Below, piece by piece: positions 14,675 to 23,408 of a stretch of DNA of 27,915 bases (the first letter of the stretch is position 1; each line of letters starts with the position of its first letter). The DNA comes from a virus. The notes below the pieces were generated by a model, which ran no database searches, was not told where the DNA came from, and saw only the letters and a list, made by a program, of their open reading frames with translations. The stretch is from positions 1 to 27,915 of the IMG/VR virus record IMGVR_UViG_3300025264_000083; one strand, given 5' to 3'. The position numbers and the translations under genes were made by a program.

Positions 14675-15199
14675 TTAATTATCTGTGCCGATGATGTAGT
14701 TAACCAGAATCACAATGTCGGTGATATTCGTTTCACCGTCCACATTCACGTCACCTAAAAACGTGGAATTGACCTCAATCGGAAAATCTACCGATATATG
14801 CAATGTGCCGCCGAAAACCGCACCGTTCCCGCCTGCAATCATAACAGATATTGAGACGTTGCCGTCAGGTGAAACATTTTCCTCTAATCCTGTCTCTGAT
14901 GTGTACCCTGGAGGGCTTGTATAATTGCCGAATACAACAGGTGAATGAATATCATATATATCGCCAGAATACATCATAACCTGAAGCCACTCCGGTCCAT
15001 AATGGCTCTCATATTTCACAGGTGAGTATTTAAACCAGTCAGCCTCAACACCAAGAATTTCAGCAAGGTTAATAGACCTCCTGTATGAACCCGAAAACGT
15101 TGTGTTTTCATCGTTTATCTCCACCTGTACCACTCTCGACAATACACCCGTTTCAGCCCATATACAAACCGTCAAACATAATAGTATTAACTTTTTCAT
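14675..15199 (-). CDS. secreted dockerin-like protein in the lysogeny operon (possible conversion gene)
   Basis: This 174-aa protein has an N-terminal signal peptide (MKKLILLCLTVCIWA, cleavage likely near residue 15). It lacks a lipobox Cys at the right place. The middle (20-145) is beta-rich. The C-terminus (149-172) carries one dockerin-type Ca-binding repeat with Asp150, Asn152, Asp154, Gly155 and Asp161, followed by the hydrophobic helix 'IVILVNYII'. A GGAGAGC site precedes the ATG. Only 13 bases separate it from the repressor gene upstream, so it should be expressed in lysogens. It is not a normal phage replication or virion gene. It may be a surface or secreted protein that alters the host cell. 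True dockerins have two repeats, so cohesin binding is uncertain. Confidence 0.7.
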   Translation of the reverse strand: MKKLILLCLTVCIWAETGVLSRVVQVEINDENTTFSGSYRRSINLAEILGVEADWFKYSPVKYESHYGPEWLQVMMYSGDIYDIHSPVVFGNYTSPPGYTSETGLEENVSPDGNVSISVMIAGGNGAVFGGTLHISVDFPIEVNSTFLGDVNVDGETNITDIVILVNYIIGTDN

Positions 15200-18112: not shown

Positions 18113-18423
18113 CAAAGACATCGCTGAAATCTGCTGTATTGGCTATTATCAAAAGTAGGACGATAAATAATCCGATACGGTCGGGAGAGATTAAGCGAAA
18201 GCTCGGTTGTGCCGGGGCGAATATACGTGAAGCGGTAAATGAACTTCGGGCAGTTGACCATTTACCTGTATGCTCCGGCTCATCCGGTTATTATTATCCA
18301 TTAGATAAGACAGAAGCCGTCCATACGATTAACCACCTGCGCAGCAGAGCCAGAGCAGAATTTAAGGCAGCAGAAGGCATATTGAAGCATTATGAGTCTG
18401 CCGGTCAGATGGAGTTGGTGTAA
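18094..18423 (+). CDS. winged-helix-like small DNA-binding protein
   Basis: The ATG at 18094 (109 aa) is a better start than 18067, which lies deep in the previous gene; TTG at 18106 or 18109 after GGAAGG is also possible. Residues about 8-75 read as a winged helix: 'LKSAVLAIIKSRTINNPIRSGEIKRKLGCAGANIREAVNELRAV', then a beta wing ('VCSGSSGYYYPLD'). A C-terminal helix is rich in Arg, Ala and Glu. The gene sits directly before the O-like replication gene (TAATG overlap). It may be a replication accessory or early transcription regulator. Confidence 0.65.
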   Translation: MEGRLLTKTSLKSAVLAIIKSRTINNPIRSGEIKRKLGCAGANIREAVNELRAVDHLPVCSGSSGYYYPLDKTEAVHTINHLRSRARAEFKAAEGILKHYESAGQMELV

Positions 18424-19124
18424 TGGCACGGCGGAGAATGATTGATCCGGGTATATGGACAAGCGAACACAATTTAAATTTAATTTTCAGACAAAGACTA
18501 TTATTCATTGGTTTAATTTCCAATGCGGACGATGCAGGCAGGATTAAGGGCAATCCAAACTTCGTCCGTGCGGTTGTTTTCCCTTATGATGATATTCCAA
18601 AACTGGCTACGGAGAATGACCTTCAGGTTTTGGAAAAAGAGGGATTAATACAACGATATAACTGCGAGGATGTAGATTATATTCAGCTTAAAAAGTGGGA
18701 TAAATACCAAAGAATAGACAAACCACAACCGTCTAAAATACCAATACATTCCAGGAATGGTTCTATGAATGGTTCTTGGAATGATTCTAAGAATGATTCT
18801 CGCCTAAAAGAAAGGAAGTTAAAGGAAAAGAAAAGAAAAGAAACATACACATCGGCGTTTTTGAAATTTTGGGAAATATATCCAAGAAAGGTGGGCAAAT
18901 CAGATGCTTACCGTAAATTCAAGAACATCCAGGTTGATGTTTCCGTCTTAATTGCTGCTCTTGAACAACAGAAAAAGAGTGATCAATGGGACAGAGGTTA
19001 TGTACCTAATCCTGCGACATGGCTTAACCAGGGAAGGTGGGACGATGATGTCTGTGCCTTGAACAGCCAAAAGGAAGAATCCTGGGATGATTGGATGTCA
19101 AAAAACACGAAGGAAAAGACGTGA
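18423..19124 (+). CDS. replication initiator, O/DnaD-type
   Basis: This is a 233-aa protein. Residues 1-100 form a winged-helix DNA-binding domain beginning 'RRRMIDPGIWTSE' and containing 'LFIGLISNADDAGRIKGNP', a signature of phage replication initiators. A charged linker (about 108-140) includes a four-fold [N-G/D-S-x] repeat and a Lys-rich stretch. Residues about 143-215 form the C-terminal domain with 'FWEIYPRKVGKSDAYRKF' and 'GYVPNPATWLNQGRWDD', which in such proteins contacts the helicase loader or helicase. The protein would bind the phage origin and start assembly of the replisome. The repeats in the linker DNA may themselves be the origin, as in lambda O. No phage helicase was seen, so a host helicase is probably used. 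Confidence 0.85.
   Translation: MARRRMIDPGIWTSEHNLNLIFRQRLLFIGLISNADDAGRIKGNPNFVRAVVFPYDDIPKLATENDLQVLEKEGLIQRYNCEDVDYIQLKKWDKYQRIDKPQPSKIPIHSRNGSMNGSWNDSKNDSRLKERKLKEKKRKETYTSAFLKFWEIYPRKVGKSDAYRKFKNIQVDVSVLIAALEQQKKSDQWDRGYVPNPATWLNQGRWDDDVCALNSQKEESWDDWMSKNTKEKT
18755..18802 (+). repeat. four tandem 12-bp iterons inside the replication gene
   Basis: The units are GAATGGTTCTAT, GAATGGTTCTTG, GAATGATTCTAA and GAATGATTCTCG, with no gap between them. All share GAATGRTTCT. They encode NGSM-NGSW-NDSK-NDS and are followed at once by an A/G-rich tract. Confidence 0.75.
18755..18843 (+). other. candidate phage origin of replication
   Basis: Four 12-bp iterons (18755-18802) are followed by an A-rich, almost all-purine stretch (18806-18843, broken only by TT at 18819-18820). 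Lambda ori has the same design: four iterons followed by an A/T-rich tract with strand asymmetry, inside the initiator gene between the DNA-binding and loader-contact domains. Here too the tract encodes the linker of the initiator. Confidence 0.6.
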
Positions 19125-19639
19125 TATTCAGGACGGATATTGCGAAGGTTGTAACCGACCTATTCCTGGCGTATAACCGTGATCCGGCAAGGAATAAACC
19201 GCTTGTCGAAAACTACTGTGAGAAGTTCGACGACATGGAAATTACCATTCTGGAGAGGGTGGTGGATGAATTGAAATCAGCCAGCAGTACGCTTCCACGG
19301 TATCCGGAGGTGATTTACGCTTATCAGCGTACAGCCTCGAGGGAGCGTCCGGAAGAATACATCGAGTGTGATTCCTGTAATGGATCAGGAATGATAATCG
19401 GCATCACTTGCGGCGGTGAAAAGATAATTTCGGTCAATTATCCGGCGAAAGGCAGGGCGTACGCCACGGCGGTTATTGGTCGCTGTGATTGCAAAAATGG
19501 TGTGAAATACCAGCGGTCATTGTTTTTGGTTGATGTTCCTGGATTCATCCGCCAATATGCGGCAAGAAAGGACTTCGATTGTGCGCATGCTGCCGGAGAT
19601 TTGTGCAAAAGGCTGAACCGGGGGGAGCTTGAGCATTGA
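19121..19639 (+). CDS. helicase loader-like protein with zinc-binding region
   Basis: GTG 19121, overlapping the previous TGA and preceded by AAGGAAAAGAC, is the preferred start (172 aa); the ATG at 19091 lies further inside the upstream gene. Residues about 3-80 form a helical domain ('TDIAKVVTDLFLAYN', 'ILERVVDELKSA', 'LPRYPEVIYAY') resembling the N-terminal part of phage loader proteins such as G39P. Next come 'CDSCNGSG' (about 89-96) and a second Cys pair, 'RCDCKNG', a DnaJ-type zinc-finger pattern. Its place right after the O-like initiator matches lambda P. There is no Walker A motif, so it would not be an ATP-dependent DnaC-type loader. Confidence 0.6.
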   Translation: MIFRTDIAKVVTDLFLAYNRDPARNKPLVENYCEKFDDMEITILERVVDELKSASSTLPRYPEVIYAYQRTASRERPEEYIECDSCNGSGMIIGITCGGEKIISVNYPAKGRAYATAVIGRCDCKNGVKYQRSLFLVDVPGFIRQYAARKDFDCAHAAGDLCKRLNRGELEH

Positions 19640-21901: not shown

Positions 21902-23110
21902 ATGGAGATAATCCAAAGAAATGTCGGGGATCTAATCTTTGCAGAATACAATCCTCGACAACTCACCAAAGACCAGCAAAAACACCTAAAAGATTCAATC
22001 ACACGGTTCGGATTGGTTGACCCGATTGTGGTTAACAATCATAAAGACCGCAAGAATATCATTGTGGGCGGTCACCAGAGGGTACGTGTCGCTACTGATA
22101 TGGGTATTAATAAAGTGCCTACCGTTGAAGTGAAATTGACATACGATAAGGAACGGGAATTAAATGTTCGTCTAAACAAGAATACAGGTGGATGGGATTT
22201 CGATGTTTTGGCAAATTTGTTTGAAATAGATGAATTGACTGAATGGGGCTTTAATGAAGATGAATTAGTCGGATTTGTTTCAGATGAAGAAGTTGAAGGC
22301 TTAATTGACGATGACGAAATACCCGAAGTAGAAGAAGCCATAACCAAGACAGGTGATTTATGGCTATTAGGTGAACATAGAGTTTTATGCGGTGATGCGA
22401 CAAAGAAGGAAGATGTTGAACGGCTGATGGATGGGAATAAGGCTGATATGGTGCTAACCAGTCCTCCATATTGGAATCAGCGAGAATATTCACATTGGGA
22501 TACTTTTGATTCATATATGAATGATATGATATTAGTTGTTAAATCAATAATCATAAATGACAATTCGATTGTATTTTGGAATATTGGGGATGATTCGGCA
22601 AATAATCAACACATAAGCGCCAAACATTCCATAATGTTAGAACAATCAGGATTGATTTATATTGATGCAATAATATGGAAAAAACAAGGAGTTACAGGTA
22701 TTAGGCTATCACACCAGAAAACAAAAAATTTATATTATCCTGGATTTAGTTTTGAAAATTGTCTTGTATTCCAAAAGGACAATGATTCATTCCCTGTGTT
22801 TGAGGATAAACATAAGAATGACATACCAATAAGCAATGTGTGGGAAATATCAACAGACAGTAATCGAGGTAAGAAACATTCAGCACCATTTCCAGTAAAA
22901 TTGCCATATACTGCAATAATTTGTTATTCAAACAATAATAAAAATAAAATATATGACCCTTTTATGGGTTCAGGAACAACACTAATAGCCTGTGAAAAGA
23001 CAGGAAGAAAGTGTTATGGTATGGAAATAGACCCGCATTACTGTGATGTTATTGTTAAGCGATACGAACAGTTTACAGGAAAGAAAGCGGAACGTATTGG
23101 GAAGACCTAA
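21902..23110 (+). CDS. ParB-domain DNA methyltransferase fusion
   Basis: This is a 402-aa protein. Residues about 1-95 are a ParB/sulfiredoxin-type domain ('NPRQL', 'GLVDPIVVNN', 'GGHQRV' at 56-61). Residues about 150-395 are an N4-cytosine/N6-adenine methyltransferase of the permuted (beta) type: the catalytic 'TSPPYW' (186-191) comes before the SAM-binding 'DPFMGSGTT' (352-360). The SPPY form is usual for, but not proof of, N4-cytosine methylation. The enzyme probably modifies phage DNA against host restriction. There is no matching restriction gene, so it is an orphan. The part between the two motifs (22490-22960) is far more A+T-rich than the ends, suggesting exchange of the target-recognition region. 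It sits right before terminase, and its end overlaps that gene. Confidence 0.9.
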   Translation: MEIIQRNVGDLIFAEYNPRQLTKDQQKHLKDSITRFGLVDPIVVNNHKDRKNIIVGGHQRVRVATDMGINKVPTVEVKLTYDKERELNVRLNKNTGGWDFDVLANLFEIDELTEWGFNEDELVGFVSDEEVEGLIDDDEIPEVEEAITKTGDLWLLGEHRVLCGDATKKEDVERLMDGNKADMVLTSPPYWNQREYSHWDTFDSYMNDMILVVKSIIINDNSIVFWNIGDDSANNQHISAKHSIMLEQSGLIYIDAIIWKKQGVTGIRLSHQKTKNLYYPGFSFENCLVFQKDNDSFPVFEDKHKNDIPISNVWEISTDSNRGKKHSAPFPVKLPYTAIICYSNNNKNKIYDPFMGSGTTLIACEKTGRKCYGMEIDPHYCDVIVKRYEQFTGKKAERIGKT

Positions 23111-23408
23111 AAAATATAATATAGACACAGATCAGGTTGAAAAGTTGGCAGGGCTTGGATGTACTAATGTCGAAATAGCATCATTCTTTGATGTTGGTGA
23201 ACACGTTATCAGAAAAACTTATGCCGGAAGTATTGCAAAAGGCAAAGAAAATGGTAAAATCAGATTAAGACAATGGCAGATGAAAGCAGCGCAGAAAGGC
23301 AATGTGGCTATGCTTATATGGTTGGGCAAGCAGATACTTGGACAGGCTGAAAAGCAAGAGGTAATGACAGGAGAATTACCAAGTGGATTCAACACAGAAG
23401 TCATATAA
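23097..23408 (+). CDS. terS: terminase small subunit
   Basis: TTG 23097 begins the conserved part 'LGRPKKYNIDTDQVEKLAGLGCTNVEIASFF' and gives 103 aa; the ATG at 23043 lies deep in the methyltransferase gene. The N-terminal helix-turn-helix ('CTNVEIASFFDVGEHVIRKTY') binds the packaging site. The following 'KGKENGKIRLRQWQMKAAQKGNVAMLIWLGKQILGQ' is the oligomerisation segment shared by many phage small terminases. It overlaps the methyltransferase gene by 14 bases and the large terminase gene by 26 bases. Confidence 0.85.
   Translation: MGRPKKYNIDTDQVEKLAGLGCTNVEIASFFDVGEHVIRKTYAGSIAKGKENGKIRLRQWQMKAAQKGNVAMLIWLGKQILGQAEKQEVMTGELPSGFNTEVI

Follow-up and report, generated by a model that had tools for sequence, protein, structure and literature searches.

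A probable replication origin within a phage initiator gene

The initiator gene and its surroundings

The window, by which we mean the whole stretch of 27,915 bases analyzed here, is a virus record whose genes for integrase, repressor, terminase, and RusA mark it as a temperate phage. Its terminase gene lies at 23383, apparent head genes follow up to the end, and apparent structural genes appear again from position 320. This gene order suggests that positions 1–27915 represent a circularly permuted, near-complete genome. Elsewhere in the window, positions 21902–23110 (+) encode a protein in which a ParB N-terminal domain (Pfam PF02195) is joined to an N6/N4 DNA methylase (PF01555), and positions 14675–15199 (−) encode a secreted-looking protein of 174 amino acids without a Pfam match, the C-terminal end of which, GDVNVDGETNITDIVILVNYIIG, resembles a dockerin-type repeat.

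The features of the initiator locus are collected in Table 1. Profile searches matched the encoded protein to PHROG_1408 (E = 2.7e-23), PHROG_270 (E = 2.4e-22), and PHROG_2149 (E = 4.4e-21), all "replication initiation protein" families whose descriptions contain no origin, iterons, or specificity residue; Pfam and NCBIfam returned no match at the usual thresholds, and no credible solved relative was found by sequence. An AlphaFold2 model of the N-terminal domain reached a pLDDT of 92 and a pTM of 0.84. In Foldseek searches, its nearest solved folds included the winged-helix repressors BlaI, MecI, and Fur (E about 0.005–0.02), and its nearest viral model was a "replisome organizer" (E = 4e-11). 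The sequence-only reading had placed the repeats described below in a linker behind the DNA-binding domain, which agrees with the predicted disorder of the residues that they encode. It had also called the protein "O/DnaD-like": hhalign detected no relation to lambda O, a DnaD Pfam domain is missing, and the DnaD half of the label now leans on weak matches to DnaD-like helicase loader PHROGs (E about 2e-4 to 5e-4). The protein thus resembles the replisome-organizer/DnaD-like initiators of Firmicutes phages in its predicted fold, which matches "replisome organizer" viral models, and in these weak profile matches, but differs in lacking a Pfam domain at the usual thresholds. According to an alignment, the C-terminal region is common to some relatives and exchanged in others.

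Directly 3′ of the initiator gene lies an open reading frame (19091–19639, +) of no recognised family, Pfam and NCBIfam included; by its position it is a candidate helicase loader. It carries the cysteine pattern CDSCNGSG...CDCKNG. Profile searches of the window recognised no helicase or loader adjoining the initiator, which we count against an origin at this locus. In relatives, the next gene after the initiator encodes a DnaC-like loader (F10, Louie, and Mock2) or a DnaB-like helicase (1.131.O, Hum25, and JBD44).

Table 1. Features of the initiator locus, in window coordinates
Feature	Position	Strand	Remarks
Initiator gene	18423..19124	+	233 aa; phage "replication initiation protein" by PHROG profiles
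N-terminal domain, residues 1–107, predicted winged helix, presumed DNA-binding	18423..18743	+	Residue 99 is Asp
Four iterons, family register: TTCCAGGAATGG, TTCTATGAATGG, TTCTTGGAATGA, TTCTAAGAATGA	18749..18796	+	Core TTC-NNN-GAA; starts at 18749, 18761, 18773, 18785
Predicted disordered linker RNGSMNGSWNDSKNDS, codons 111–126	18753..18800	+	AlphaFold2 residues 113–124, pLDDT below 50
C-terminal region	18789..19076	+	PHROG_9474 match to residues 123–218, E = 1.3e-17
Terminal half-site TTCTCG, leading into the junction	18797..18802	+	TTC half-site
Junction motif TTCTCGCCTAAAAG	18797..18810	+	Matches NT[CA]NN[TG]C[CT][CT]A[AG][AT]A[GT]
Purine-biased A-rich tract, candidate DNA unwinding element	18806..18843	+	36/38 purine, 24% G+C

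Iterons and purine tract in the window

Four 12-bp copies, GAATGGTTCTAT, GAATGGTTCTTG, GAATGATTCTAA, and GAATGATTCTCG, occupy positions 18755–18802, as had been noted from the sequence. The count of four gapless iterons stands; the register was six bases out of step, as the repeat begins further upstream, at 18749, and the phase that fits the relatives is four units of TTCNNNGAATGR, followed by the half-site. Apart from these four iterons, nothing in the window matches TTCNNNGAATGR exactly. When the whole window was scored for tandem repeats with periods of 8–30 (+1 per match, −1 per mismatch), 18749–18802 was the strongest, with a score of 26; none of 200 dinucleotide-shuffled versions of the window exceeded 17. 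The rest of the window yielded no second array.

The 12-bp period stays in frame and yields four N-(G/D)-S-x peptide units, as would be expected if the repeat were a feature of the protein, that is, a flexible N-x-S linker that arose by slippage and has no role as DNA. However, when the peptide was held fixed and its codons were redrawn according to the usage in 14 window ORFs, the array score had a P of 1e-5 (200,000 draws). The serine codon is TCT in all four repeats, as opposed to 14% elsewhere.

The sequence-only reading had also described a 38-base, nearly all-purine, A-rich tract behind the iterons. This tract is indeed present, with three bases between it and the end of the array at 18802, and it surpasses every other window 38-mer in strand bias (200 window shuffles reached at most 35/38 purine). 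Its purine content was not significant upon synonymous recoding (P = 0.29); Lys, Glu, and Arg codons largely explain the bias, so that the window tract by itself is no evidence beyond the peptide, a point that favors the protein-linker explanation. In stability, the tract belongs to the lowest 4.5% of window 40-mers without being the minimum; we count this, and the explanation of its purines by codon composition, against the origin reading.

Linker DNA and residue 99 among relatives

Relatives were identified by tblastn on phage records and by scans of viral and genome contigs. They come from Clostridia, Actinobacteria, and Proteobacteria, and give a family of 95 members including the window, with the large enterobacterial groups represented by a hand-picked sample; dereplication at 95% identity across residues 1–100 left 79. 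For each linker, the best repeat at a period of 10–13 was compared with that in 300 synonymous recodings. The linker DNA was more repetitive than its recodings (P < 0.05) in 58 of the 75 testable cases, as compared to 0/79, 12/79, and 5/71 for control segments of the same genes, figures to be read knowing that the test region and period range were chosen after inspection of the linkers and that the null is imperfectly calibrated, the 12/79 coming from the control segment nearest the linker. Among the 40 strongest arrays, 32 have a period of 11. Such a period rotates the copies through the reading frames, so that what is conserved must be the DNA and cannot be the peptide; a peptide repeat is impossible in most relatives. 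The tandem repeats inside the initiator gene are selected as DNA.

The repeat sequences themselves vary widely (CTCACTGAGGA, TTCGACGA, GTACCGGACGAA, TTACGGGAACG, TGTCAGACAAG, and others). The nearest relative of the window, L020 (N-domain identity of 69%), likewise carries 12-bp repeats at this location, though with a different sequence, and a purine-rich tract after them; its repeat score alone fell short in the synonymous test (P = 0.096). With this exception noted, the expectation that iterons persist in related phages while the encoded linker drifts is borne out by the family. Some arrays are irregular: L018 (1839–1999) has 14 or more dyads, spaced 11 bp apart and continuing up to the contig end, either a real expansion or an assembly artefact, and in L031 (2501–2869) and L023 (1501–1941) a stop lies within the iteron array in the initiator frame, reflecting a split gene, a frameshift, or a sequencing error.

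The junction between array and tract also recurs. The motif given in Table 1 is present in 20 of the 79 linkers versus 0.0042 times per 200 nt in the remainder of these loci, and a shorter form in 26/79 versus 0.020 per 200 nt outside, enrichments that are partly circular because both patterns were derived from the linkers in which they were then counted. The use of several reading frames is free of this circularity and points to selection on DNA: the shorter form falls in frame 0 at 8 loci, in frame 1 at 17, and in frame 2 at 1. A 36-mer with at least 85% purine occurs in 37/75 linkers, as compared to 0/79, 0/79, and 2/71 in other segments of the same genes. That repeats, tract, and junction recur throughout this large initiator family, whichever reading frame they fall in, supports an embedded origin.

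From the arrays we derived two iteron classes, TCA-N-[TG]GA and TCG-N-[CG]GA, and scanned all N-domain positions for association with them. The column of window residue 99 had a mutual information of 0.68, as compared to a 95% maximum of 0.38 in shuffles, which ignore the relatedness of the loci. Under a slightly relaxed class rule and with extra loci added, residue 99 was Asn at 23 of 24 TCA-core loci (Ser at the other) and Asp or Glu at all 17 TCG-core loci. Of the loci fetched after the rule had been noted, several of which were classed by eye, L256, Austintatious, PSonyx, and pMLP1 combine Asn with TCA, and L299 and PFR1 combine Glu or Asp with TCG. Five phages belong to neither class: Vibrio 1.131.O (Asn, CACGCGTG), Hum25, Mock2, BigBern1, and WilliamBoone.

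On the best tree, each trait changes seven times, with only one independent pair on well-supported branches, which suggests that the association may be phylogenetically independent. Class and residue switch together even between N-domains that are 76–84% identical. The close pairs L017/L027 and L025/L039 (both 84% N-domain identity) differ in both traits; L017 has Asn and CTCACTGAG cores, and L027 has Asp and TTCGGGGAA-type cores. We consider it an even chance that position 99, located just after the wing, sets part of the iteron sequence across the initiator family, with Asn reading the A of TCA-N-TGA cores and Asp or Glu going with TCG-N-CGA cores. Since site and reader would lie in one gene, origin and initiator specificity could switch together.

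The window itself does not follow this rule: its Asp99 together with TTC[CT] cores fits neither class, which we count against the origin reading, and L020 has Asn99 with TCA cores.

These data also bear on whether the repeats are bound by a different protein, such as a repressor or a host factor, instead of the product of their own gene. Each dyad would make a plausible operator and the prophage encodes further DNA-binding proteins, but the iteron class changes with residue 99 of the initiator, also between the closely similar N-domains mentioned above, and we give this alternative very little credence. The same tracking of a residue in another domain speaks against a mere protein linker, as do the 11-bp periods, the junction read in three frames, and the recoding result in the window; that explanation is exceedingly improbable.

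The proposed embedded origin and its known counterparts

In phage lambda, the origin lies within gene O, with iterons that are bound by O dimers and an adjoining A+T-rich region of 40 bp that has almost all of its purines on one strand (PMC5043065); the order is iterons in mid-O, then the purine-biased tract (PMC5043065, PMC7466680). In SPP1, gp38 binds the direct repeats of oriL within gene 38 (PMC6316719). The window element shares with lambda ori and its variants in Stx phages the placement of the iterons midway along the initiator gene, their number (four in lambda), and a neighboring A+T-rich tract whose purines lie mostly on one strand; by the same count, the lambda tract is 73% purine and 22% G+C, as compared to 36/38 and 24% in the window. 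It differs in that lambda iterons are 18 bp long at a spacing of 20–24 bp, whereas the window units are 12 bp long, abut one another, and have a 9-bp TTCNNNGAA core, and its relatives mostly have 11-bp units. The earlier proposal of a lambda-like architecture with a different iteron sequence therefore holds for the arrangement of iterons and then tract inside an initiator gene, with iteron length and spacing set apart. With SPP1 oriL, the element has in common the direct repeats within the initiator gene and an A+T-rich unwinding element there, a candidate one in the window. The SPP1 repeats are bound by the product of their own gene (PMC6316719), and the window array would be bound likewise. 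SPP1 has, however, a second origin, oriR, and no second array was found in the window.

Homology to lambda O was rejected (hhalign probability of 0.1% for the N-domain family). The best PHROGs of the two proteins differ, with one weak family, phrog_2514, shared, and one of the Foldseek matches, a "putative replication protein O" (Min27), had an E of 5.8e-4 but an rmsd of 10.8. As this homology was not detected, our claim concerns function instead of membership of the O family: the analogy supports an element that may work like the lambda origin. The embedded-origin design is already known; in the open-licence literature, we found neither such an iteron class nor a specificity residue, family-wide rules, or the association of iteron class with residue 99.

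We consider it very likely that positions 18749–18843 are the replication origin of the phage, inside its own initiator gene. The winged-helix N-domain of the 233-residue protein would bind the four TTCNNNGAATGR iterons, as suggested by the residue-99 association in relatives, the window itself being in neither class. By analogy with lambda, the bound array would strain and open the adjoining purine tract, and early transcripts running rightward out of the repressor region would pass over the origin. Through its C-terminal part, held by the iteron-encoded linker, the protein may bring in a helicase or loader, judging from the gene order in relatives. The predicted DNA-binding domain, the modelled disordered linker, and the helicase or loader genes downstream in relatives fit this origin reading. 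The cumulative GC skew, proposed earlier as a check, rises through 18.8 kb with no switch there; it lends the origin no support and is counted against it.

The residue-99 association concerns a match between N-domain and repeat only and maps no initiation, and it would also suit an array serving as an N-domain binding site for regulation, be it an autoregulatory operator in its own gene or a partition/incompatibility site, with replication starting elsewhere. We regard this as improbable, because the array adjoins a purine tract with a recurrent junction, the family is annotated as replication initiation and has helicase or loader genes adjacent in relatives, and the known phage examples of repeats in an initiator gene are origins (PMC5043065, PMC6316719, PMC7466680).

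If the origin reading is true, the initiator gene would itself reveal where the origin lies throughout a broad phage family, by a winged-helix domain followed by an iteron array at 11 or 12 bp, the junction, and the purine tract, and the residue-99 association would offer a simple bench test of how initiator and origin change partners.

In the region of residue 99, six family members (L005, L008, L305, L307, L309, and L313; Pseudomonas psageB2, HK639, F10, Louie, Bordetella IFTN4, and JBD44) carry HQNPH or HQTPH. Several of them have TGCAC-type repeats of 11 bp, together with a repeat tract of the CTGATTCC type whose purines lie on the opposite strand.
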